Shown one piece after another: positions 41,137 to 53,436 of a DNA stretch of 53,436 nucleotides. Origin of the DNA: Cyanobacteria bacterium FACHB-63. GTDB lineage: Bacteria > Cyanobacteriota > Cyanobacteriia > Leptolyngbyales > Leptolyngbyaceae. The number at the start of each line of letters is the position of its first letter. The first letter of the stretch is position 1. The DNA lies in assembly GCA_014695255.1 (NCBI GenBank), contig JACJNX010000172.1, positions 1 to 53,436 on the forward strand, in the 5' to 3' direction. The notes below the pieces were generated by a model that was not told where the DNA came from, searched no databases, and worked only from the letters and a program-made list of their open reading frames with translations. The position numbers and the translations under genes were made by a program.

Positions 41137-42351
41137 ATGACAACTGTAATCTTTGTGCATGGAACTGGTGGTAGAAAAGAAGCTTATGCTGAAACCTTGC
41201 AACAGATGGAGCAAGCTCTTCAAAAACGTAGACCTGATGTCAAATTAGTTCCTTGCCTCTGGGGTGACCCTTTAGGAGCAAAACTCAATGCTGGAGGAGC
41301 CTCTATCCCCACCTATAAGGAATCTCAAGGCGGTCAGGTGCCAACGCCTGAGGATGAGAATGTACGCCTATGGGAAAATCTATACAACGATCCGTTCTAT
41401 GAGATGCGGTTATTGAGTTTAAGACCCCTACAAACTCAAAGAATTGTCCCTGGACAATCTACACCTTCACAGGAACTTAGAAGCAGAGTCGAATCACTAT
41501 CGACCGATACAGAATTACAGGCAAAGATGAATGTTTTAGGTATCGGTGCCGTTTTCCAACAAGCTTGCGAGGTAATTACAGGGGGCAACTCGAAACAGTT
41601 TGGAAGACTTTTAGAAACAGCTTCAAGACCTTTAGAAGGGGATTATGCTGCGATCGCCAGGGCTATTGTCTCCATGTCTCGAGTTCTGTGCAAAGAACAG
41701 GAGCTTTACCCCTGGCTATTGGTGGATGACCAACTACGGAATGAAGCAGTTGATGCAATCCAGAAGACGCTAACCCGCGATGAAACATCAAGGGGAGTTA
41801 TCTCAAACTGGACTAAGAGTCAACTTACGGGACTGGCATTTGGCTTTGGTACTAACAAGATCAGGCGGAAGCGGGGTGCTGTGATGGATGGTACTTATCC
41901 GTTTGCGGGAGATATTATGATATATCAAGCTAAAGGCGAAAAAATTCGTGAGTTTATTCGTGGTCAGATTGAGCACGAGCAAGTTGAGCCACCCGTCGTC
42001 CTACTTGCCCATAGCTTGGGTGGTATTGCCTGTGTTGATTTACTAATCGAATGCGATTTGCAAGATAAAGTTAAGTATTTAATTACGGTTGGATCGCAAG
42101 CGCCCTTCTTCTATGAAATTGGTGCATTGCAAACGCTGCCCTACGGTGAGCCACTACCAAAACACTTTCCGAAATGGCTTAATATTTACGATTTAAGAGA
42201 CTTCTTAAGCTACATCGGTAACTGTGAGGGAGTTTTTCCCGGAAAACTGGTGGATGTACAGGTAGATAATAGACAGCCCTTTCCAGAGGCCCACGGGGCT
42301 TACTGGGCTAATGAACAGACCTGGAACGAGATCGAAAAGGTGTTACCATGA
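41137..42351 (+). CDS. Alpha/beta hydrolase (lipase/esterase-like), first gene of the ternary system
   Basis: A 404-residue protein. Oxyanion segment VIFVHGTG at residues 4-11, nucleophile elbow LAHSLGG (S293), acid probably in NIYDLRDF and histidine in EAHGAYW (H386), the order expected for this fold. A long helical insert of about 200 residues separates the first strand from the elbow. No signal peptide, so it acts inside the cell. It would hydrolyse a lipid or ester; in conflict systems such enzymes attack the membrane. Its stop overlaps the caspase gene start (ATGA), so it belongs to the same operon and is a likely effector. Confidence 0.75.
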   Translation: MTTVIFVHGTGGRKEAYAETLQQMEQALQKRRPDVKLVPCLWGDPLGAKLNAGGASIPTYKESQGGQVPTPEDENVRLWENLYNDPFYEMRLLSLRPLQTQRIVPGQSTPSQELRSRVESLSTDTELQAKMNVLGIGAVFQQACEVITGGNSKQFGRLLETASRPLEGDYAAIARAIVSMSRVLCKEQELYPWLLVDDQLRNEAVDAIQKTLTRDETSRGVISNWTKSQLTGLAFGFGTNKIRRKRGAVMDGTYPFAGDIMIYQAKGEKIREFIRGQIEHEQVEPPVVLLAHSLGGIACVDLLIECDLQDKVKYLITVGSQAPFFYEIGALQTLPYGEPLPKHFPKWLNIYDLRDFLSYIGNCEGVFPGKLVDVQVDNRQPFPEAHGAYWANEQTWNEIEKVLP

Positions 42352-43454
42352 CCACTGCTCCTGTCCAAGCGCCTAATGTACATGCCTTAATCGTAGGGAT
42401 TGAGAAGTATCGGGCTGGCACTGAATATAACCTCAATGGTCCTGCAAATGATGCCCTAAAGTTTGCAGAGTGGCTATTGCAGCATGGCACTGAGCCACGG
42501 CATATTCATTTATTCTTATCTCCTTTAGAGCAGAATCAGGGAGTATCATCTAAGGCAAAAGGTAAAGGATTAGACCCACTCCCTGCAACTCACGACGAGA
42601 TCGCCAATACTATTCGCTCCAAGTTGACTATTGAAAGTAGCCGAGGAGATCTGCTTTATGTGTTCTGGGGCGGACATGGCATCATTACGAAAACAGAGGC
42701 AACTGTACGTCGGCTGTTTTTTTCCGATACTGATGATAACACGAAATGGAATTTGAATGTGAACTCATTGGTAGAAGCTTTGGGCACTTCGGCACACGGT
42801 TCTGGATTTCCTCGACAAATCTTCTTTATTGATGCTTGTGCCAATGCGTTTTATCAGGGACTAGCTCAGACTACACAAGGAGAAGCCTCTGAAGTCAGGT
42901 TTGCAGCCAGTGGTGATGCCGCGCGAGGAGAGCAAGTTGTCTTGTTTGCATCGGTAACCTATGACACAGCCACCAACGATTCTGCTAGTGGGACAGGTCA
43001 TTTTTCTAGTTCCGTGCTGGAACATTTACAGGGGGAATCTATATGCCCCGATATGAAGCAGGTTATAGAAAGAGTTCAATCTGATTTTTTACAGCAGCAA
43101 AAACAACCACCCGTTTATTGGTGGTCAGAGAAGGGTGAAAACCGACGGGTGATTGATAATACTCAACCCACTCAACCAAAAGTTATTACCCTTACCCCCC
43201 CCCAAGTGAAGAATCTACACGGAGCTTTAATTGAAGCATTTCCTGATCCTTCGGACTTAGACATGTTGGTACAGTTTTATCTGCATATTCCCTTAAATCG
43301 TATATCTATAAATGCTAAGACCCAGGATAAGCTCGTTCTTGATGTAATTCGGTATGTGAATGCTCGTGGAAAGATACTGGATTTAGTTAAAGGAGCACTT
43401 GAAACCAATCCTAATAGTCCATTTTTATTGCAACTCAAGAAAGCTTATTTATAA
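42348..43454 (+). CDS. Caspase-like peptidase with C-terminal EAD1 domain
   Basis: A 368-residue protein. The peptidase C14 (metacaspase) fold runs over about 8-250: VHALIVGIEKY, then YVFWGGHG with catalytic H110, then IFFIDACAN with catalytic C164. A linker follows, then about residues 280-368 form an effector-associated domain of the EAD1 type (LTPPQVKNLHGALIEAFPDP and later IRYVNARGKILDLVKGA). The same domain heads the next protein, so the two probably recruit each other by like-like contact. Cleavage of cell proteins after activation is the inferred role. Start overlaps the hydrolase stop by 4 bases. Confidence 0.85.
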   Translation: MTTAPVQAPNVHALIVGIEKYRAGTEYNLNGPANDALKFAEWLLQHGTEPRHIHLFLSPLEQNQGVSSKAKGKGLDPLPATHDEIANTIRSKLTIESSRGDLLYVFWGGHGIITKTEATVRRLFFSDTDDNTKWNLNVNSLVEALGTSAHGSGFPRQIFFIDACANAFYQGLAQTTQGEASEVRFAASGDAARGEQVVLFASVTYDTATNDSASGTGHFSSSVLEHLQGESICPDMKQVIERVQSDFLQQQKQPPVYWWSEKGENRRVIDNTQPTQPKVITLTPPQVKNLHGALIEAFPDPSDLDMLVQFYLHIPLNRISINAKTQDKLVLDVIRYVNARGKILDLVKGALETNPNSPFLLQLKKAYL

Positions 43455-43469: not shown

Positions 43470-45212
43470 ATGCCCACTGGTGATATACCTAATTCCCAAT
43501 ATAAGGAGTTAACACCAGAGCAATTACATGCTCTATGCAAAGCATTAGAGGTTGCTGTTCCTGAACCAGAAACTTTAGAGAGAATAGTTCTTGGTCTAGG
43601 AGAATACTTAACTAATATTCCTAAAGCGAATACCCATCCTGGTCTCATTCTCAATCTTGTTAAATGGGCTAAAGCTAAAGGGAAAATCCGAAAGCTGATT
43701 ATTGAGGTTTCCTTAGAAAGTCCTCTAAACCCACAATTACAGCAATTTGTAAAAAAACATATACAGTCTCTTCTAGAGCTAGATCCCATAGATCTTCCAA
43801 GGGATTTACTCTTTTCACTAATTAGTTGCTTGCAGGAGACTAATGATTTCACAGAGAGCATCTGGAGAGCCTGTATTAAAACCTTACCTAATCTAGATAT
43901 CAGTAGTCCTAACATTAAAGATTTAGTCTTCCACGGTGAATTAAGTGGAGAAGTAAAATGGTTAATCATTTTAGAACTTTTGCTCCATACTTGGGAGGGA
44001 AATGATGAAAAAGGACAACTGAATATTGTTAAGTTTGTTGAAAACCTAGAAGTATTTTCCGAAGAAAGTTATAAATCTTCTTTAACTCAATGGCTTAAAG
44101 AATTACCTACAAGTCTGCGACCTCTTTCCAGAACTTCTAGCTCTATTAGCCGCCAAGAGCGTCCTTCTAATGAAACACTTAAATCTTTACAGGCTTATTT
44201 CTTGATTGTCATAGAGCCACCTGAGATTACAACCCAGACTGGACTGTATGGCATTAATGGCTACTTAATGACACACTTAGGTTCTAGCGCTCAGTTTACG
44301 CAAATCTATACACTAAACCTGAAGCCTCCTGCCAAAGTATTGAATTCCGGCGCTGAAGATGAGATAGATCATGTCTCTGCTGTATTGCAACAAACCAAGG
44401 GAGTATTCTGTAGCCTCCAACAAATTGAGGACAACTTACCTGACTGGTTAGTCCAGGCTCAAAATGAAATCGACATTCGATGTTCAGAGCTACAGAGCGA
44501 GTACGAATTGAGCTTTCGTCCTATTTATGACCTCAGTGTTGAGTTTTGGTTACCGTTTGAATGTTTAACGGCTGCTGCCGATACCTGGAAAATTTATGGT
44601 AAACCTGTGCGCTTGAAACAGCGTAGACTTGTTGTTGGTGAAGAATATCGGGTTGTTGTGCGTTCTTACGATCGATTTAGCGATTCAGATGCCTTAAATA
44701 ATTTGAATCGAATGTGGCAGGAACTTACCAGGTCATTAGAAGAATTGGTAGCTACAGAGGAAAATGTCCTTTCTGAAGGCACCTCTCGCTCTGCATCCTC
44801 CGGTATCGTACAGCCACAATTTCACAGTCTAGACTGCTGGTCGCGCATTGCAACGCTACGATCGCAGATACTACCAGCCTGTTGGGCATTAGCCCTGACT
44901 TCTCCCTTTGACATAAAAGAATATGAGCCGCAGCGGGACGAGTTATTTGCTTTGATTCTGGAGAAGGGGATTCCAATGGCTCTCTGGTCACGAAAATCCT
45001 CTATTAGTGGAATCCAAGAAGCGATGGATGAACTATTAACCAGTTATACTTCCTCACAAATCAATGAGTTGTTAGATCAGGTTAAACAGATCCGTAAATC
45101 TGCTAACGAGCAGCAATTGCTGGGAAAACATCTAGCCATTTGGTGTGATGAGCCGAAACGCCTAATGGAATTGAAACAGTTCCTTAGAAAATCTGGGAGA
45201 TTAAGTGCATGA
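43470..45212 (+). CDS. EAD1-VMAP adaptor (vWA-MoxR-associated protein)
   Basis: A 580-residue protein. N-terminal EAD1 domain, about 8-100 (ELTPEQLHALCKALEVAVPE, then LVKWAKAKGKIRKLIIEVS). A helical middle part follows, and a C-terminal VMAP-type domain, about 240-570, with YDLSVEFWLPFECLTAAADT and YRVVVRSYDRFSD, the pattern I know from VMAP proteins of MoxR-vWA ternary systems. In those systems VMAP links the ATPase/vWA core to the effectors. It follows the caspase gene by 15 bases and overlaps the MoxR gene by 4 bases. Confidence 0.75.
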   Translation: MPTGDIPNSQYKELTPEQLHALCKALEVAVPEPETLERIVLGLGEYLTNIPKANTHPGLILNLVKWAKAKGKIRKLIIEVSLESPLNPQLQQFVKKHIQSLLELDPIDLPRDLLFSLISCLQETNDFTESIWRACIKTLPNLDISSPNIKDLVFHGELSGEVKWLIILELLLHTWEGNDEKGQLNIVKFVENLEVFSEESYKSSLTQWLKELPTSLRPLSRTSSSISRQERPSNETLKSLQAYFLIVIEPPEITTQTGLYGINGYLMTHLGSSAQFTQIYTLNLKPPAKVLNSGAEDEIDHVSAVLQQTKGVFCSLQQIEDNLPDWLVQAQNEIDIRCSELQSEYELSFRPIYDLSVEFWLPFECLTAAADTWKIYGKPVRLKQRRLVVGEEYRVVVRSYDRFSDSDALNNLNRMWQELTRSLEELVATEENVLSEGTSRSASSGIVQPQFHSLDCWSRIATLRSQILPACWALALTSPFDIKEYEPQRDELFALILEKGIPMALWSRKSSISGIQEAMDELLTSYTSSQINELLDQVKQIRKSANEQQLLGKHLAIWCDEPKRLMELKQFLRKSGRLSA

Positions 45213-46438
45213 ATGAAGATCAATTCAATTGGCAGGTGTTTCAAGGGGATCATACACAGGATGGCAACCGCATCACGCAATTGTCACCCCCACCTCCTTG
45301 GCGACAGTTTCGTGGGCAACTATCTAAAGTTGATCCGACTTCAGAGCAGGATCTGACTTCAGAGCAGAAAGAGTACAAAGAAACAATTACTAACTATTGG
45401 CAGCAGATACAATCTCTTTCAAACACTGAAACACATACTCGAGATCGCCAGCGAGGCGAAAGCTTCCGCATTCGTACTGATCAAGCTAAAGTGATTCAGG
45501 CAGTTAATGCAGCCCTAGCGTTGCGACGACCTTTGTTGATTACGGGAAGACCTGGTTCTGGAAAGACTTCATTGGCTTATGCAATTGCCTATGAGTTAAA
45601 ACTTGGACCCGTGCTAATGTGGCCCATCACAGCTCGCTCCACCCTGGAAGCAGGACTTTACCGCTACGATGCGATTGCTCGATTACAGGATGCTCAGCTA
45701 CTTAAGCAAGAACCAGAACCCGATAATGGGGATAATCCCCCAACTGATACAGAAACCAACATGGAAGCAGAACAGGGTAGAAGGATAAAGGAGCGTAACG
45801 TTGGGGACTATATTCAATTGGGTCCGTTAGGCACTGCTTTTGTACCTGCTCTTTATCCTCGGGTCTTACTAATTGATGAGATCGATAAGAGTGATATCAA
45901 TTTGCCGAATGATTTGTTGAATCTATTGGAAGAAGGTCAATTTGAAATTCCTGAACTGGTTCGCTTAGCGGAATACCAGAGACAGGATAAACAAATGCAA
46001 GATGGACAAGGATCAGCGACAGTAGCCCCTCCCAGCCCCGAGCGGGTTGAGGTGCGTACAGCAGATAATTTAAAGGTCATGATTGAGGGTGGTAAGCTCC
46101 GATGTGATGCGTTTCCTCTGATTGTAATGACCAGTAATGGAGAACGAGACTTTCCCTCAGCATTCTTACGCCGGTGCTTGCGGGTTGAAATGCCTAAACC
46201 AGAGAAAGACGATCTATACAATATTGTTGAGGCTCATTTAACTGAAGATGTAGCTAAGAAAGTCAATGATTTGATTGAGCGGTTTTTGATGAAAACTGAT
46301 ACAGAAGCCGTTGCGTTAGCAACCGATCAATTGCTTAATGCTGTGTACTTGCGTAAGTATGGAGCAACTCTTGAAGCCGATAGTGATTTAGAACGGTTGA
46401 TATTCGCGGCTCTTACAAGCTCAGGGAGTGCAGGCTAA
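45209..46438 (+). CDS. MoxR-type AAA+ ATPase of the ternary system
   Basis: A 409-residue protein. Walker A ITGRPGSGKTSLA near residue 113-119, Walker B VLLIDEIDKSD near 221-230, sensor 1 and arginine-finger region IVMTSNGERDFPSAFLRRC. The long insert between Walker A and B and the LNLLEEGQFEIPEL segment are typical of the MoxR group, ring ATPases that remodel vWA partners. It overlaps the VMAP gene at the start (ATGA) and the vWA gene at the end (TAATG), so the three are translated together. Confidence 0.85.
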   Translation: MNEDQFNWQVFQGDHTQDGNRITQLSPPPPWRQFRGQLSKVDPTSEQDLTSEQKEYKETITNYWQQIQSLSNTETHTRDRQRGESFRIRTDQAKVIQAVNAALALRRPLLITGRPGSGKTSLAYAIAYELKLGPVLMWPITARSTLEAGLYRYDAIARLQDAQLLKQEPEPDNGDNPPTDTETNMEAEQGRRIKERNVGDYIQLGPLGTAFVPALYPRVLLIDEIDKSDINLPNDLLNLLEEGQFEIPELVRLAEYQRQDKQMQDGQGSATVAPPSPERVEVRTADNLKVMIEGGKLRCDAFPLIVMTSNGERDFPSAFLRRCLRVEMPKPEKDDLYNIVEAHLTEDVAKKVNDLIERFLMKTDTEAVALATDQLLNAVYLRKYGATLEADSDLERLIFAALTSSGSAG

Positions 46439-49400
46439 TGAAGCGTTTAGTTGCTGCGTTAGAGCAAAAATTTCCTGATCTCACTGCTGAAGAAATTGCA
46501 GACATTCTCTGGCTAACCCTTCAACAGTGGCAATTGCAGCAAACGAAGCAAACGACTTCTTCTCCAACTTCACAATCTGATTCTGAGCGGACCAACGAAC
46601 CTCCGCCCCTCCCTGTTATCCCTTCAGTTTCTTCTCTCCAGCAAACAAAATCCGATAGGGCTTCTCCTGAACCGTCACCATCTATGGCAGGAGTGACTAC
46701 CCAACGCCCTTCAACTTCTAGCCAATCAACGTCTTCCACAGCACCAGGGGCTGCCTTAGCCCTGCCAGATACTCGGTCACTGCACCAATCTTTGGAAATT
46801 TTGAAGGCGTTGCGTTCTCTCATCCGCCAAGTGCCTTCTGGAGATGCGAAACATCTGGACATTTCCGCAACAGTGCGTGCGATCGCCGATACAGATGTTT
46901 GGCTTCTGAAACTGCGTCCGGCTTTAGAGACTTGGCTTGAGTTGGCGATCGTTGTAGACACCTCGGCTTCAATGGTGATTTGGCAACGTACAATATTGGA
47001 TTTACGGCGAGTGTTAGCACAATCTGGTGTATTTCGGGATGTCCGTCTGTGGAGCTTAGAAGCACAAGAGATCTTAAATGGAACAGAGATCGATCAAACT
47101 CCTCCATTGAAATCTACTTCTCAACTAAGCCTTTATCTTCGTCCGGGTTTTGGTCCCGCAACAGTTAAACCACCACCCTGTCGTCCACAAGAGTTGTTAG
47201 ATCCAAGCAAGCGGCGGTTAATCATAGTGGTTAGTGACTGTATTGCCTCGTACTGGGATACGTACCAAATGCGAAGTATATTGCAACTTTGGGGCGATCA
47301 CGGTCCAATGGCGTTGATGCAAGTCTTACCAGAATGGCTTTGGAGCCGTACTGCTTTACTAGAAGTAGCCCTGGGACAGGTTGTGGGCTCTAGTCCAGGA
47401 CAGGAAAACCGATCGCTAACGTTTGTTCGACGTGGACGGTGGCAGCGGAAGCCGCCAGTTGGAGTGAGAGTGCCTGTTGTGACATTGGATCCTACGGTAG
47501 TTGCTCGATGGAGCCAAATGATTGCAGGAAATGCTTCTGTTCCTGCGCCAGGGTTATTGTTTTCACCAGCACAGGTACGGGAACTCCTTCCTCAAGATGA
47601 ATCTGAAGATGCTGAAGCCAGTGCTCGAGTTCTAACCCCATCGGAGCGATTAGAACAGTTTCGTAACTTTTCGTCACCGATGGCTCGGAGGTTAGCAGGA
47701 CTGCTGGCGGCTTGCCCAGAGGTAAGCTTGCCCATCGTTCGCATGATACAAACAGCCATGTTGCCAGGGGTTCAACAGGTTCATGTAGCAGAGGTTTTAC
47801 TAGGAGGATTGTTCAAATCCCTGGGAGAAGTTACGGCTCAGACACCGGCTGATGAGGTGCAGTATGTTTTTCATTCAGGAGTGCAGCTTCTGGTGCAACA
47901 CACAATACCACCAGAGCAGTCGTTCAAAGCTCTTTCTACCTGGATTCAACGCCGTTTTGGGTATTCTCTAGAAGATTTTCGGGCTTATATTACACCTGAA
48001 CGCATTGCGCAGATTAAGCCCTTTGCTGGAGTGCTTCTCGACGTGCTGAAGCGGCGTCGTGATCAGTACGTTGAGGTAATTAGCGAGATTGAAGCTGAAT
48101 TTCGTCCTCGCTATACATCTGCTGTAGAGCTTACCCAACAGGAGACAGCTAGTAAGGATTACGAAATTCTCACTCGACAGGGAACTTCAGAAGTGGTGGT
48201 CATTGCAATTCATGGCGGAAATTTGCAACCTGGCACAACCGAAATTGCTGATGCTGTAGCAGGCGGTCTCCACTCATTCTATTCCTTTGTCAGCCTCAAA
48301 CCGGAGATTGACCAGACACTTTATATTGCCAGCACGCAGTTTGATGAGCAGATCGCCCGAAGGATGGTTCGCAATGCGCGTACCGTTCTGTCCATTCATG
48401 GCTGTAAGGGAGATATAGAGTTTATTCGGGTCGGTGGTGCAGATCGAGATCGCATCGAGACAATTATTTCAGAACTGACCAGAGAAGGATTTAGAGTTGA
48501 TGACGATCGCTCCTCTGGAACACATCCTAACAATATCTGTAATCGAGGACTTACGGGACGAGGGGTACAAATTGAAGTCAGCCGAGGATTGCGGAATCGT
48601 TTAGTCGATGCTGATGGTCAAATTCTGGAAAAAAGGGGCTTCAAGCAACTGGTAAACGCATTGCAGCGGGGACTTAAAGCAGCGACGCTGCCGCAGTTTT
48701 CAGAGGCTCCACCTCCTGTTACTTCAGATAATATTGATTCAATTAATTTGGAACCAAGTTTCCCCGAGTTGCAAACTTTAGAATTTGAAACTGCTCAACT
48801 GATTGAAGAGTCAATTGTTTTACGCCCAGGCATTGCTATAAAACATCCTAGGGGGGGAGTCGGAACCTTAGGGTGTTTTGTGCGTAAGCGAGGTCAACAA
48901 CAACTCTACATCTTGAGCGTTTCTCACATTCTAGCTCCGAAAAACATTGCGAAAGCGGGTGACCCTATCATTCGTCTAACATCTCCAACATCTGAGGGAG
49001 AACAAGAAGATGTGATTGCAACGCTAGCTGAATATTTTCATCCCGAGATAGGAGCAGAAAATCAGCTTGATGTTGCGATCGCTGCAATCCAGAATTTACC
49101 AGTGGAAGCGGCAGATATTCGCGGAATTGGGACTCTTCGAGGAGCGTATACGGGCGAAGAATCAACCCTTTTAGGAAAGACGGTGCGCAAGCTCGGTGCC
49201 AGATCAGGAGTAACACAAGGTACCGTAAGCGATATTTCCGCTGATATCCGTATGAGTTATGAGTTTGGAAACATCACGTTGGAAAACTTGATCGGGATCG
49301 AAAGCCCTGGAAGTGAGCCGTTTACAGAATCAGGAGATAGCGGTGCGATCGTTATTGATGAAGAGGGATATGCCATCGGCATCTTGGTTGGCGGAACCAT

Positions 49401-50493
49401 TTCACCTGAGCGCGGTCAACGTTCACTATCCTTTGCCATTCCTCTTCAGAGTGTGCTAGATGCTCTAAGTTTGGAGCTTGTACTTGATAGTTCTACTGTT
49501 TCATTTCCTCCATTAGAAACTCAGGAAGTTGAGGTCATTACAATTGTTTCTGAGAATGAGACACCAGAAACAGATATTAGGTGGCAGCTTCTTGAGTATG
49601 AAGTGGCAACTGTCGAACGAAGGTCTGATCCACCTCAAACTGAATTTCTCCGCAATATTTTTCGCCAGGGGGATCAGCGCGGGCAATGGAGCATCCGCAA
49701 ACAGCGACAGCAGCGGGTTTGTTTATGGATTGAGCGTCTGACAAGCGGGGTTGACTTGGAAATGGTGCTGATTCTGGGAAGGAGTTTTGTCATGGGATCA
49801 CCAGAGAATGAGCCGGAACGTTTCTCTTCTGAGGGCCCGCAGCATGAAGTTAGCCTGAACCCATTTATGATGGGGCGTTACCCAGTGACACAAGCACAAT
49901 GGCAAGCAGTGGCAGCGATGCCGCAAATTAATCGAGAACTCGATCCATCTCCCTCCAGGTTTAAAGGAGAGAAACGTCCCGTGGAGAGGGTATCTTGGTA
50001 TGATGCGGTGGAGTTTTGCGAAAGGCTTTCGGCTTATAGCGGACGAGAGTATCGCTTGCCTACAGAAGCGGAGTGGGAGTATGCGTGTCGAGCTGGAACC
50101 ACAACGCCCTTTCACTTTGGAGAAACTATAACAAGTGACCTGGCAAACTACAGCGGTAGCGTCACTTATAACGATGGACCCAAAGGTAAAGAGAGCGAAG
50201 AAACGACTCCTGTAGATTGGTTCAAAGTGGCTAATGCCTTTGGTCTATGTGACATGCACGGAAATGTTCATGAATGGTGCCAGGATCATTGGCATGAGAG
50301 GTATGAAGGGGTGCCCATTGATGGTAGTGCCTGGTTAGCTGACCAGGAAGATGTAAGTCGTGTTGTACGCGGCGGTTCCTGGGACCTCAATCCGCGGTAT
50401 TGTCGTTCTGCCCATCGCGACAACTATTCGCCCAACTTCCGCTACGCCACTTTCGGTTTTCGTGTTGTTTGTTCTACTCCGAGGACTCTGTAG
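46438..50493 (+). CDS. Multidomain effector/receptor: vWA + PGA-hydrolase-like + trypsin-like + FGE-sulfatase domain with DGR-type variable end
   Basis: A 1351-residue protein. Domains: short helical N-terminus and Ser/Thr/Pro-rich linker (1-110); vWA, about 165-370, MIDAS motif DTSASM (D174); a domain like poly-gamma-glutamate hydrolase/YjqB, about 580-780 (AIHGGNLQPGTTEIADAVAG, VLSIHGCKGD, VQIEVSRGLRNR); trypsin-like domain, about 795-1025, complete triad H830 (SVSHIL), D878 (LDVAI) and S968 (SGDSGA); FGE-sulfatase domain, about 1105-1351 (GNVHEWCQDHW, RGGSW). The last 45 residues are encoded by a variable tract (50359-50486). It would couple ATPase-driven signalling (vWA) to two hydrolase effectors and a hypervariable recognition domain. 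Translation is coupled to the MoxR gene. Confidence 0.85.
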   Translation: MKRLVAALEQKFPDLTAEEIADILWLTLQQWQLQQTKQTTSSPTSQSDSERTNEPPPLPVIPSVSSLQQTKSDRASPEPSPSMAGVTTQRPSTSSQSTSSTAPGAALALPDTRSLHQSLEILKALRSLIRQVPSGDAKHLDISATVRAIADTDVWLLKLRPALETWLELAIVVDTSASMVIWQRTILDLRRVLAQSGVFRDVRLWSLEAQEILNGTEIDQTPPLKSTSQLSLYLRPGFGPATVKPPPCRPQELLDPSKRRLIIVVSDCIASYWDTYQMRSILQLWGDHGPMALMQVLPEWLWSRTALLEVALGQVVGSSPGQENRSLTFVRRGRWQRKPPVGVRVPVVTLDPTVVARWSQMIAGNASVPAPGLLFSPAQVRELLPQDESEDAEASARVLTPSERLEQFRNFSSPMARRLAGLLAACPEVSLPIVRMIQTAMLPGVQQVHVAEVLLGGLFKSLGEVTAQTPADEVQYVFHSGVQLLVQHTIPPEQSFKALSTWIQRRFGYSLEDFRAYITPERIAQIKPFAGVLLDVLKRRRDQYVEVISEIEAEFRPRYTSAVELTQQETASKDYEILTRQGTSEVVVIAIHGGNLQPGTTEIADAVAGGLHSFYSFVSLKPEIDQTLYIASTQFDEQIARRMVRNARTVLSIHGCKGDIEFIRVGGADRDRIETIISELTREGFRVDDDRSSGTHPNNICNRGLTGRGVQIEVSRGLRNRLVDADGQILEKRGFKQLVNALQRGLKAATLPQFSEAPPPVTSDNIDSINLEPSFPELQTLEFETAQLIEESIVLRPGIAIKHPRGGVGTLGCFVRKRGQQQLYILSVSHILAPKNIAKAGDPIIRLTSPTSEGEQEDVIATLAEYFHPEIGAENQLDVAIAAIQNLPVEAADIRGIGTLRGAYTGEESTLLGKTVRKLGARSGVTQGTVSDISADIRMSYEFGNITLENLIGIESPGSEPFTESGDSGAIVIDEEGYAIGILVGGTISPERGQRSLSFAIPLQSVLDALSLELVLDSSTVSFPPLETQEVEVITIVSENETPETDIRWQLLEYEVATVERRSDPPQTEFLRNIFRQGDQRGQWSIRKQRQQRVCLWIERLTSGVDLEMVLILGRSFVMGSPENEPERFSSEGPQHEVSLNPFMMGRYPVTQAQWQAVAAMPQINRELDPSPSRFKGEKRPVERVSWYDAVEFCERLSAYSGREYRLPTEAEWEYACRAGTTTPFHFGETITSDLANYSGSVTYNDGPKGKESEETTPVDWFKVANAFGLCDMHGNVHEWCQDHWHERYEGVPIDGSAWLADQEDVSRVVRGGSWDLNPRYCRSAHRDNYSPNFRYATFGFRVVCSTPRTL
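50359..50486 (+). other. DGR-type variable repeat 1 (3' end of the vWA/trypsin/FGE gene)
   Basis: A 128-bp tract from RVVRGGSW to CSTPRT. Compared with 51303-51430 and 52373-52500 it has no gaps. In the first 35 codons 25 sites differ among the three tracts: 23 at first or second codon positions and 2 at third positions. Invariant codons are almost identical at the DNA level. Confidence 0.8.
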
Positions 50494-50573
50494 CACTTTT
50501 CCCTTTTGCCCTCTTGCCCTTTTCGCTCCCAAGGCGAGACTTCAAATTCTGATCACAACTCTCACTCTCAACA

Positions 50574-51479
50574 ATGGCAGCTTCTTCAAATCCAAAACCA
50601 AAACCTAAGCTCACATTTCGGCGTCGCCGCCAAACGGTTCAGTTTTTCGTTGAATCCCTCAATGAAAATGTGGGGATCAAGATGATACTCATCCCTGGCG
50701 GCACCTTTCTCATGGGTTCTCCTGATACTGAGCTAGAGAGATCCAGCCGGGAAGAACCCCAACATGAGGTGAGCGTGCTCTCTTTTTTCATGGGCAAGTA
50801 TCCTGTGACGCAGGCGCAGTGGAGAGCCGTTGCAGAATTGCCGCAAGTTAGTCGAGAACTAAATTCAGAGCTGTCTCGCTTCAAGGGAGATAAGCGACCC
50901 GTGGAACAAGTGTCTTGGTATGACGCTGTTGAGTTTTGTGCGCGTCTTTCTAAATTCACGGGTCGGGAACATCGGCTTCCGAGTGAGGCGGAATGGGAAT
51001 ATGCCTGTCGGGCGGGAACGACAACTCCCTTCCATTTTGGTGAAACGATTACGACTGATCTTGCAAACTACCGTGGCACAGATGGCGATGAACTGAAGCT
51101 GTCAGGTTCCTATAGTTCGGGACCCAAAGGTGAATACCGAGAAGAAACGACGCCTGTAGACTACTTTGAGGGCGCAAACGGATATGGGCTTTTTGATATG
51201 CATGGAAATGTTTATGAATGGTGCCAGGATCATTGGCATGACGGTTATGAAGGGGCACCCAAGGATGGCAGTGCTCGGCTAACTGAAAAGGAAGGTGCAC
51301 GTCGTGTTATACGCGGCGGTTCCTGGGACGGCAATCCGCGGCATTGTCGTTCTGCCTATCGCCTCGGCGATTCGCCCGACGACCGCGACTACAGGCTCGG
51401 TTTTCGTGTTGTTTGTTCTGCTCCGAGGACTCCTCTGTATCAGAACTGGCAGGTGGGAGATCTGTCGGGCGTATCTTGA
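50574..51479 (+). CDS. FGE-sulfatase (C-type-lectin-fold) protein with variable C-terminus, copy 2
   Basis: A 301-residue protein consisting almost only of the FGE-sulfatase domain: [59 protein letters not shown], then the variable end RGGSWDGNPRHCRSAYR. True sulfatase-activating enzymes need a specific cysteine pair that I do not see here, so it is more likely a ligand-binding lectin-like protein. It lies 80 bases after the 1351-residue gene on the same strand. The C-terminal extension after the variable tract (LYQNWQVGDLSGVS) differs from the other two copies. Confidence 0.8.
   Translation: MAASSNPKPKPKLTFRRRRQTVQFFVESLNENVGIKMILIPGGTFLMGSPDTELERSSREEPQHEVSVLSFFMGKYPVTQAQWRAVAELPQVSRELNSELSRFKGDKRPVEQVSWYDAVEFCARLSKFTGREHRLPSEAEWEYACRAGTTTPFHFGETITTDLANYRGTDGDELKLSGSYSSGPKGEYREETTPVDYFEGANGYGLFDMHGNVYEWCQDHWHDGYEGAPKDGSARLTEKEGARRVIRGGSWDGNPRHCRSAYRLGDSPDDRDYRLGFRVVCSAPRTPLYQNWQVGDLSGVS
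51303..51430 (+). other. DGR-type variable repeat 2
   Basis: A 128-bp tract, aligned with tracts 1 and 3 from CGT GTT to GAGGAC/T. Variable codons here include GGC, CTC, GAC, GAT and AGG where the other copies have CTC/GAC, GAC/CAC, AAC/GGC and so on; the third base is nearly always kept. Confidence 0.8.
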
Positions 51480-51616
51480 AGAGTCCAGACTTGCTCCTGT
51501 GATGCTTTTTGAGCATCCAAAAATCAAACCGAGTCAGCTAGCTTGGTAGGGCAACCGAAGAGTTAACTGGCTCACCCAAATTTTGGCAATACCGGGAAGA
51601 CTCTAGAAAAGGCGCT

Positions 51617-52510
51617 ATGGACAAATCTTCCAACCAGAATGACTCACCTAAACAGGAACGAATGCCCGATCGTCAAGGCTCGGTAGCGACAAGATTCACA
51701 CTCCAACGCACTTCCCGAACTGGACAAGGATACATTGAGCCTCTATTGGATGCTGGCAGCGCTTTACCGCTCCACATGGTTCTTATTCCCGGTAGCACGT
51801 TTCTCATGGGATCGCCACCAGACGAAATCGATCGTGCAAATGATGAAGTTCCTCAACACACTGTCACCGTACCGCAATTTTTCATGGGTCGTTATCCAAT
51901 CACCCAAGCACAATGGCGATCTGTTGCAGGTTTGCCTCAGGTCGATCGAGAGTTAGACCCTGAACCTTCTAACTTCAAAGGAGAGAACTGTCCTGTAGAG
52001 CAGGTCTCTTGGGACAAGGCTGTCGAATTCTGTGCCCGCCTTCAAGAGCATACGGAGCGCCCCTACCGCTTGCCCTCTGAAGCCGAGTGGGAATACGCCT
52101 GCCGCACTGGCACCACCACACCCTTCTACTTTGGCAAAACTCTTACTGATGAACTCGCCAATTATGATGCTTCTGTAACTTATGCTGATGGACCGGCAGG
52201 CGAATATCGCAGGGAAACCACTCCTGTAGATCATTTTGGAATTGCCAATGCCTTCGGATTGTCAGATATGCACGGGAATGTATGGGAATGGTGTCAGGAT
52301 CATTGGCATGGCAATTATGAAGGAGCACCAACTGATGGCAGTGCCTGGTTAACTGACAATGAAGATGCATCTCGTGTTCTACGCGGCGGTTCCTGGTACG
52401 ACTATCCGCAGTATTGCCGTTCTGCCTATCGCCACGACAATTCGCCCGGCTACCGCAGCTACAATGTCGGTTTTCGTGTCGTTTGTTCTGCACCGAGGAT
52501 TCTTCAGTAA
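51617..52510 (+). CDS. FGE-sulfatase (C-type-lectin-fold) protein with variable C-terminus, copy 3
   Basis: A 297-residue protein. A polar N-terminus of about 50 residues, then the FGE-sulfatase domain ([65 protein letters not shown]) and the variable end [17 protein letters not shown]. It is the last gene of the cluster. Copies 2 and 3 lack the vWA, trypsin and peptidase parts of the 1351-residue protein and might act as free recognition subunits or decoys. Confidence 0.8.
52373..52500 (+). other. DGR-type variable repeat 3
   Basis: A 128-bp tract. Codons at the variable sites (TAC, GAC, TAT, CAG, TAT, CAC, GAC, AAT, GGC, TAC, AGC, TAC, AAT) end in the same base as the other copies, as expected when first and second positions derive from template adenines. 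Confidence 0.8.
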
Positions 52511-52560
52511 CGCTTTTCTCTTTTGCCCTCTTACTCTCTTCGGCGCGAAGCGTCTCAAAA
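52511..52560 (+). other. Pyrimidine-rich tail shared with the region after variable repeat 1
   Basis: CTTTTCTCTTTTGCCCTCTT just after the stop closely matches CTTTTCCCTTTTGCCCTCTT after the first variable repeat (50496-50515). Copy 2 lacks it. It may belong to the homing region of a DGR or be a remnant of duplication. Confidence 0.45.
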
Positions 52561-52690: not shown

Positions 52691-53153
52691 ATGATTATTA
52701 CGATCGCCAGCTTTAAGGGTGGTGTAGGTAAAACAACCACAGCGTTGCATTTAGCCCAATATTTAGGAAAACATCGAGGGAGTAGCAAAGTCGTCTTGCT
52801 GGACGGAGATCCTATTTTCATGAAATCGGCACCCTATTCTCACCAAGTTCGGCATCCTCCCCTACCGCATATGTCAGGTGAAAAATTATGCTGCTGCGAT
52901 CGAACTCTGTTTCCCTTGTTTTTCTTGGACTGGAGCGATCAGAAAGACCGCAGCCTTGGTTGAAACTTTGTGTCGATTGACACCATTAACAGGGTGCCGG
53001 ACTTGAGTGAGAATTGGGTGCCGATTTGAGTGCAATTTTGCAGCAAGTGACTTACTGATCATTCCTTCGGAGATCTCTATCTTTTCGTTAGAGGCTACGA
53101 TCTCAACCGTAGGAGTTTTACATCGCTATCTGATGATAAGTATCGGATTCTTC
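52691..53153 (+). pseudogene. parA: ParA-type partition ATPase, broken
   Basis: The N-terminus MIITIASFKGGVGKTTTALH carries the deviant Walker A, and VVLLDGDP is the Walker A' region. After DGDP (about 52815) the ParA sequence is lost. A second piece resumes at about 53034 as SDLLIIPSEISIFSLEATIS, equivalent to the segment around the ParA Walker B, and DDKYRILQG near 53133-53159 matches a later ParA segment in another frame. About 60 residues between the two parts are missing and a roughly 200-bp foreign sequence takes their place. It is therefore inactive; it was probably a chromosome- or plasmid-type cyanobacterial ParA. Confidence 0.7.
52824..53032. mobile_element. Small IS-derived insertion with inverted ends inside parA
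   Basis: GAAATCGGCACCCTATTCTC at about 52824-52843 (continuing ACCAAGTTCGGCAT) is the imperfect complement of the stretch ending GAGAATTGGGTGCCGATTTG at about 53012-53031 (preceded by GGTGCCGGACTTGAGT). Inverted ends of about 35 bp bracket about 140 bp without an intact gene. This looks like an internally deleted insertion sequence or MITE. Exact ends and target duplication are unclear because the host gene is also deleted. Confidence 0.55.
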
Positions 53154-53154
53154 A

Positions 53155-53340
53155 AGGAGTGACAACAAGGCTAGAGTGCAGGCTGAATCAGGGAAATGGC
53201 ATTGAGACCTCGTAGAAAAAAGCGGCGTTTATGAGGCTTAAGTGCCATGAGTTTGTCCGCCCACTTAGAGCGAGCCAACATTATTTTAGGACTTCACATC
53301 CCATAATTTGCGTATACCCACTCTTAAACGAGAGCTCCCT
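53155..53340. other. Non-coding stretch after the parA remnant
   Basis: No gene recognised. A short frame beginning near 53197 reads only MALRPRRKKRRL and stops. Confidence 0.4.
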
Positions 53341-53341
53341 C

Positions 53342-53436
53342 TTGTTCTCGCTCTCTCAAGAATCAATTCCTGCTTTAGTCGAGACGATCCGTTCTGAGCT
53401 AAGCGAGGCTTTCGAGGGATGGGTTACTGAGTATAA
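53342..53436 (+). CDS. Partial gene related to the N-terminus of the GIY-YIG protein
   Basis: The frame reads LFSLSQESIPALVETIRSEL then SEAFEGWVTEY and runs off the window. This matches the N-terminal region of the GIY-YIG protein at 12772 (LSEESIQDLVATIRSDLHES...). The true start is uncertain: a TTG at 53342 is used here, and the frame is open further upstream. Whether a GIY-YIG domain follows cannot be seen. Confidence 0.5.
   Translation, partial: MFSLSQESIPALVETIRSELSEAFEGWVTEY

Follow-up and report, generated by a model that had tools for sequence, protein, structure and literature searches.

Results

In the 53,436-nt contig JACJNX010000172.1 of Cyanobacteria bacterium FACHB-63, which we analysed over its whole length and call the window, three FGE-sulfatase genes end in variable repeats (VRs) of the kind written by a diversity-generating retroelement (DGR), and the second repeat is joined directly to a structured RNA element that in intact relatives follows the template repeat of the DGR. 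Neither a template nor a DGR reverse transcriptase (RT) was found in the genome assembly. With a probability of roughly 0.7, we read the three genes as DGR targets that were frozen when recombination between the second variable repeat and the template removed both RT and template.

Three tracts with a template-copying signature

The repeats, numbered by gene order, are delimited as follows.

50368..50486, plus strand: VR1 (core), from tract alignment and the silent-site and template-adenine comparisons
51312..51430, plus strand: VR2 (core), occupying the template-repeat position of relatives, from alignment and silent-site comparison
52382..52500, plus strand: VR3 (core), from tract alignment and template-adenine comparison

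These cores sit within tracts of 128 bp each (50359-50486, 51303-51430 and 52373-52500) that form the ends of the FGE domains of the three genes and align without gaps in one reading frame. Realignment reproduced the equal lengths and the counts given by the original prediction, in that the first 35 tract codons contain 25 variable sites, of which 23 affect codon positions 1-2 and only 2 affect position 3; over the full 128 bp, 29 variable sites divide 15/10/4 among codon positions 1/2/3. Upstream of the tract, genes 1 and 2 differ at 36/34/104 sites in the same order of positions, compared to 11/6/1 in VR codons 4-39 (p 6e-6), and the remaining two gene pairs show the same contrast (p 8e-5 and 1.5e-3). 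Silent differences at identical residues occur at frequencies of 0.54, 0.52 and 0.59 in the FGE domains upstream of the tracts and at 0/29, 2/26 and 3/28 residues inside them, a significant drop in all three pairs (p 1.5e-7, 1.3e-4 and 7e-6). The pair without any silent difference over its 29 shared residues is VR1 and VR2, and VR3 is set apart from both by two silent T/C changes. This pattern is other than that of ordinary divergence. Tract column ~10 is where the template-VR match starts in several intact relatives, and the first tract codons may lie outside the copied block.

We compared the tracts with templates from 12 other loci. Over tract columns 10-112, six or more of the 12 templates carry adenine at 19 of the 25 variable columns, compared to 9 of 78 invariant ones (p 2.6e-9). 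Columns 45, 76, 93 and 108 vary among VR1-VR3 and are adenine in 0/12 templates, whereas the variable columns 38 and 55 are adenine in 2/12 and 3/12; columns 38, 55 and 76 could have been adenines in the lost template. In intact controls, comprising 12 loci with a template and 18 gap-free template-VR pairs, 243 of 484 template adenines were changed, against 1 of 1370 non-adenine bases; this count leaves out the second VR of L049 (a 2-base length difference), loci L091, L095 and L131 (gapped or lacking a VR), and L048, whose template looks part-overwritten (7 non-adenine changes over three pairs). Five two-target loci with a nearby template, used as positive controls, showed 0 silent differences between their VRs. 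Because the tracts are uniform apart from columns at which the 12 templates elsewhere mostly carry adenine, the assignment of all three as DGR variable repeats is strongly supported. Together, silent-site homogeneity, controls and adenine-column fit argue that the codon signature reflects template copying with adenine errors, which is how the original prediction had explained it.

The alternative that no DGR was ever involved, and that gene conversion, together with selection acting on a binding surface, shaped ordinary FGE paralogues, draws on the fact that FGE domains are common and that C-type-lectin folds vary on their surface. We give it almost no credence: gene conversion should homogenise the variable codons too, the variable columns fit the template adenines of other loci, and a DGR-type RNA element lies behind VR2.

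The same tract pattern, with no close DGR RT, also occurs in genomes G002 and G026 (for G002, silent sites by themselves give no significant result, p 0.21). G002, a near-complete genome of the same genus in 5 contigs, carries two VR-like FGE genes (L194 and L195), and searches of it returned neither a close DGR RT nor the RNA element. At L089 the silent-site pattern was not seen (p 0.36).

A post-template RNA element joined to VR2

In intact relatives, a structured RNA of ~150 bases lies directly 3′ of the template. RNAalifold, applied to 17 sequences including the window, gave 39 pairs, 30 of them with compensatory change. A covariance model built from 15 relatives with the window excluded (R1; its E-values are rough) returned a single match in the FACHB-63 genome (E 3.9e-29; 150 of 1298 first-look candidates scored).

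51428..51575, plus strand: RNA element, Rfam RT-14-like (R1 132.5 bits; RT-14 40.1 bits)

In this copy, 3 of the 40 model pairs are non-standard. Rfam RT-14 (RF02921), which from its Rfam name we take to be an RT-associated RNA, matches over its full length at 51433-51573 (E 0.0033), under its gathering score of 48.1 and behind a VR instead of a template. Among open-licence papers, our search found none naming RF02921, 'RT-14 motif' or 'RT-14 RNA'.

The element adjoins VR2 and lies behind neither VR1 nor VR3. Genes 1 and 3 have an early stop after their VR; gene 2 has no such stop and terminates inside the element, which encodes its last residues. The attachment of the element to VR2 indicates that a template formerly stood there. 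The spacer that follows the BPP-1 template is folded; it recruits bRT-Avd and primes cDNA synthesis (PMC12875486, in excerpt). The window-type element resembles that spacer in being structured and in its place directly 3′ of a template, and by this position it may act in the same way.

Search for the template and reverse transcriptase

The FACHB-63 assembly is a draft of 7,229,183 bases in 179 contigs (completeness 99.98%), in which the window is the entire contig C82. The original prediction had proposed a genome-wide search for a template and a DGR-type RT, and on this assembly neither was found. Searches with VR1, with a predicted template and with degenerate patterns (one of the three scored 15 of 30 first-look candidates) returned VR1-VR3 as the only long matches, and protein and family searches gave no DGR RT. 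The sole RVT_1 match in the genome is an RT-Cas1 fusion adjoining CRISPR-type genes; a relative's DGR RT used as query recovered this RT-Cas1 (27%) and a 28-residue stretch on contig C31 (57%, E 4.4e-4). For a decayed RT within the window, tblastn with three DGR RTs gave weak matches only (best E 0.11). The RT-Cas1 gene (L002:5850-7846, minus strand, G000:C27) has its Cas1 part spread over two overlapping open frames and is possibly frameshifted, and a gene for a 23S_rRNA_IVP four-helix-type protein lies near it (L002:3039-3437).

The original prediction had treated a genome lacking any template as grounds for rejecting a DGR. We do not take the missing template in the assembly as evidence against the VR nature of the tracts, because the post-template RNA element survives attached to VR2. 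The statement that all three genes are DGR targets thus stands for what the tracts are, given the adenine columns, and not for a DGR present now, as neither template nor DGR RT was found in the assembly.

A DGR could nevertheless still be active if its RT and template lay on a missing contig or a lost plasmid and reached the three VRs in trans. Cyanobacterial DGRs with remote targets have been described (Vallota-Eastman et al. 2020, PMC7517822, in excerpt), the same-genus genome G005 carries part of a DGR RT and a template, and the silent identity of VR1 and VR2 over 29 residues would fit ongoing copying. We consider this unlikely, given the completeness of the assembly and the failure of protein, family, DNA and pattern searches to give either part; moreover, the VR2-element junction lies within one contig, so that the cassette is absent from its expected position whatever the assembly gaps contain.

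A second putative cassette stump

A stretch on contig C31 of the same genome (L186:8690-8960, minus strand, G000:C31) holds the 28-residue RT tail and, immediately behind it, the short beginning of a template-like repeat that passes into a VR-like end, with gaps inside. The 37-residue peptide read there is similar to the C-terminal end of DGR RTs (all 11 RTs in the comparison match, E 2e-9 to 0.001 in this small set), and the stretch lies downstream of a second, paralogous operon with VMAP-C/caspase, AAA and FGE genes. From these parts, the stretch appears to be what is left of another dead DGR cassette; the R1 model gave no match at this locus. We rejected the remnant as parent template of the window VRs, since its first variable codons fit poorly, and the C31 FGE gene as a recent VR of the same family, since 12/20, 12/20 and 16/23 identical residues differ silently from VR1-VR3. 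The flank of the stump resembles the sequence behind VR3. Similar pyrimidine-rich stretches lie 3′ of VR1 and VR3 (50487-50525 and 52504-52542) and also behind the stump; candidate hairpins 3′ of VR1 and VR3 were discarded, as folding equalled that of shuffled sequence (z 0.56 and -0.25).

Intact relatives and a probable route of loss

Relatives with a complete cassette have the order VMAP-C, AAA, target, bAvd, RT, template, RNA element, target (L055) or target, target, bAvd, RT, template, element (L049). In FACHB-63, a cyanobacterial DGR serving a VMAP/AAA/caspase conflict operon would once have diversified the three FGE genes, and the locus would probably have read target 1, target 2, (avd), RT, template repeat, RNA element, target 3 in the ancestor, a prediction matched by L049. 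VR2 and the very similar template repeat, as direct repeats, would then have recombined, deleting avd, RT and template, and the product would be VR2 joined to the RNA element, which is the order of the window. Without RT and template, the three VRs would persist as frozen alleles in open frames, slowly gaining ordinary substitutions. We infer how the locus was once arranged in this strain, that recombination caused the loss and that the system is inactive today; the position of the junction at the VR/template boundary suggests recombination between the DGR's own repeats.

Recurrence of the junction

R1 matched 128 elements in 83 of 291 genomes of the class, counts that are a lower bound with 10 candidates scored per genome. 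Classed by upstream DNA, with template-versus-fusion thresholds set post hoc after an earlier upstream comparison, 103 elements lie behind a template, 15 behind a VR in an open FGE frame (window included; some are orthologous, namely G201/G231 and perhaps G148/G196, and these are not 15 independent events) and 10 behind neither. With 13 further loci known beforehand to hold the element, which stand outside the 15/128 figure, the counts become 114, 17 and 10 of 141. Left out before counting were L106 and the second L136 match (~38 bits, no repeat upstream) and one of the duplicates L029/L101. Among genomes with fusions, the RT search covered G000, G011 and G012; in G012 (3 contigs), a 1132-aa FGE gene terminates at the element, and RT matches are only 25-27% identical.

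Two of the fusions, L294 and L296 (G201 and G231), are apparently orthologous in two species, with common flanks and differing VR bodies; they are alike at 133 of 150 positions, as if diversification continued. At L048:8660-8791 and in L236 before the element, repeats in the template position are partly (L048) or largely (L236) VR-like, as if overwritten.

RT and template might have been lost otherwise, through transposon-driven deletion or through end-joining whose breakpoint coincided by chance with the end of the repeat. Transposons and repeats resembling miniature inverted-repeat transposable elements replace DGR parts elsewhere (Dore et al., PMC10907252, in excerpt), and the window has an integrase gene and a repeat at its end. 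This route appears rather improbable to us, as the junction falls at the VR/template boundary, the same junction type appears in other genomes (15/128), and 10 of 17 fusions have the C/T-AC end usual for templates (judged by eye), as expected from a crossover within the repeat.

The junction might instead be functional, with the gene 2 mRNA carrying the element and serving as template for an RT in trans. The window element is well kept; in G085 (L254, G085:C59:3194-5950), an FGE target whose VR adjoins the element comes directly after an open DGR RT frame, with no template between; and the post-template spacer of BPP-1 recruits bRT-Avd and primes cDNA, as cited above. However, no DGR RT was found in the FACHB-63 assembly, and self-templating predicts adenine loss, whereas VR2 has adenines at 11 of 25 columns, against 12 in VR1 and 14 in VR3, and is not depleted. 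We therefore hold it decidedly improbable for gene 2. The broader proposal, that element-carrying targets are self-templating DGRs whose mRNA is both product and template, with gene 2 awaiting an RT in trans and G085 having one adjacent, also strikes us as improbable; if true, diversity would be inherited and adenines consumed over time.

Some points weigh against loss through VR2-template recombination, our preferred reading, and others qualify the support for it. The assembly is a draft of 179 contigs and the window ends in a repeat, its last 113 bases (53324-53436) being identical to the end of contig C120 — an assembly break — with flanking DNA unseen. VR2 retains a VR-type end, GAGGACTC, and the crossover would therefore lie close to or beyond that very short stretch. 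In favour of loss, an RT lies within 2.5 kb upstream of 1/17 fusions compared to 75/114 template-type elements (p 2.5e-6), or 1/15 compared to 71/106 when restricted to loci with at least 1.5 kb of upstream sequence, but this contrast is partly built in, because the target gene occupies the upstream space in fusions, and 39/114 template-type elements are likewise without an RT at this distance. Also in favour, non-adenine changes among VR1-VR3, 3 or 6 per ~225 sites against 1/1370 in intact loci (p 0.01 or 5e-5), point to drift after DGR loss, weakly if only 3 count: with columns 45, 93 and 108 alone the signal is modest (p 0.01), and the test sets VR-VR differences against template-VR differences.

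Operon context

The target genes belong to a VMAP/AAA/caspase conflict operon.

42348..43454, plus strand: caspase-EAD1 gene (Pfam Peptidase_C14 7e-15, EAD1 1.5e-12)
43470..45212, plus strand: EAD1-VMAP-C gene (Pfam VMAP-C 2.9e-22, EAD1 4e-10)
45209..46438, plus strand: AAA ATPase, putatively MoxR-like by position (Pfam AAA_5 6e-9, above cut-off)
46438..50493, plus strand: target gene 1, VR1 at its 3′ end (SAV_2336 N-terminal, PGA-hydrolase, weak trypsin-like and FGE parts)
50574..51479, plus strand: target gene 2 (FGE), running through VR2 into the RNA element and stopping there
51617..52510, plus strand: target gene 3 (FGE), VR3 at its 3′ end

Pfam FGE-sulfatase matched in all three target proteins. 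The N-terminal part of target 1 is SAV_2336 (NCBIfam 1.5e-108), for which the Pfam scan gave no vWA match, and its Trypsin_2 match falls slightly under the curated cut-off. An N-terminal fragment of a ParA-type ATPase lies just 3′ of target 3 (52691-52963).

Kaur et al. (2020, PMC7159879, in excerpt) report a DGR association for about 80% of the VMAP-ternary systems of cyanobacteria and gammaproteobacteria, and DGR targets of the VMAP type have been proposed to be antigen sensors, an idea so far untested (Dore et al. 2024, PMC10907252, in excerpt). By analogy with this literature, the VR surfaces of the three FGE proteins are probably ligand-sensing.

Discussion

It is already known that DGRs diversify FGE genes of VMAP systems, act on remote targets and decay through transposons, as excerpts of the earlier work describe (PMC7159879, PMC7517822, PMC10907252, PMC8144416). 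Like the cyanobacterial FGE/C-type-lectin DGRs of VMAP ternary systems (the first three of these sources), the window has the same partners and FGE targets with 3′-terminal VRs, and it shares the template-like scaffold and RNA element of the intact relatives compared here. Unlike those DGRs, it comes from a genome that has yielded neither RT nor template, and a post-template element is fused to a target VR. The degraded DGR loci of Thiohalocapsa PB-PSB1 (PMC10907252, in excerpt) similarly retain targets and have lost RT or template; there, however, mobile repeats replace parts, whereas the window junction falls at the boundary of VR and template. Our literature search of open-licence papers found no description of VR-element fusions, and the window thus apparently combines a known kind of target with an undescribed route of DGR loss.

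Because template and target are direct repeats flanking the RT, one recombination event would both delete the machine and fix the repertoire. VR-like tracts alone are no proof of an active DGR. The VR-element junction provides a searchable mark by which the loss of DGRs, and what becomes of frozen sensors, can be tested across cyanobacteria. A hypermutation system may, in this way, switch itself off yet keep its products.

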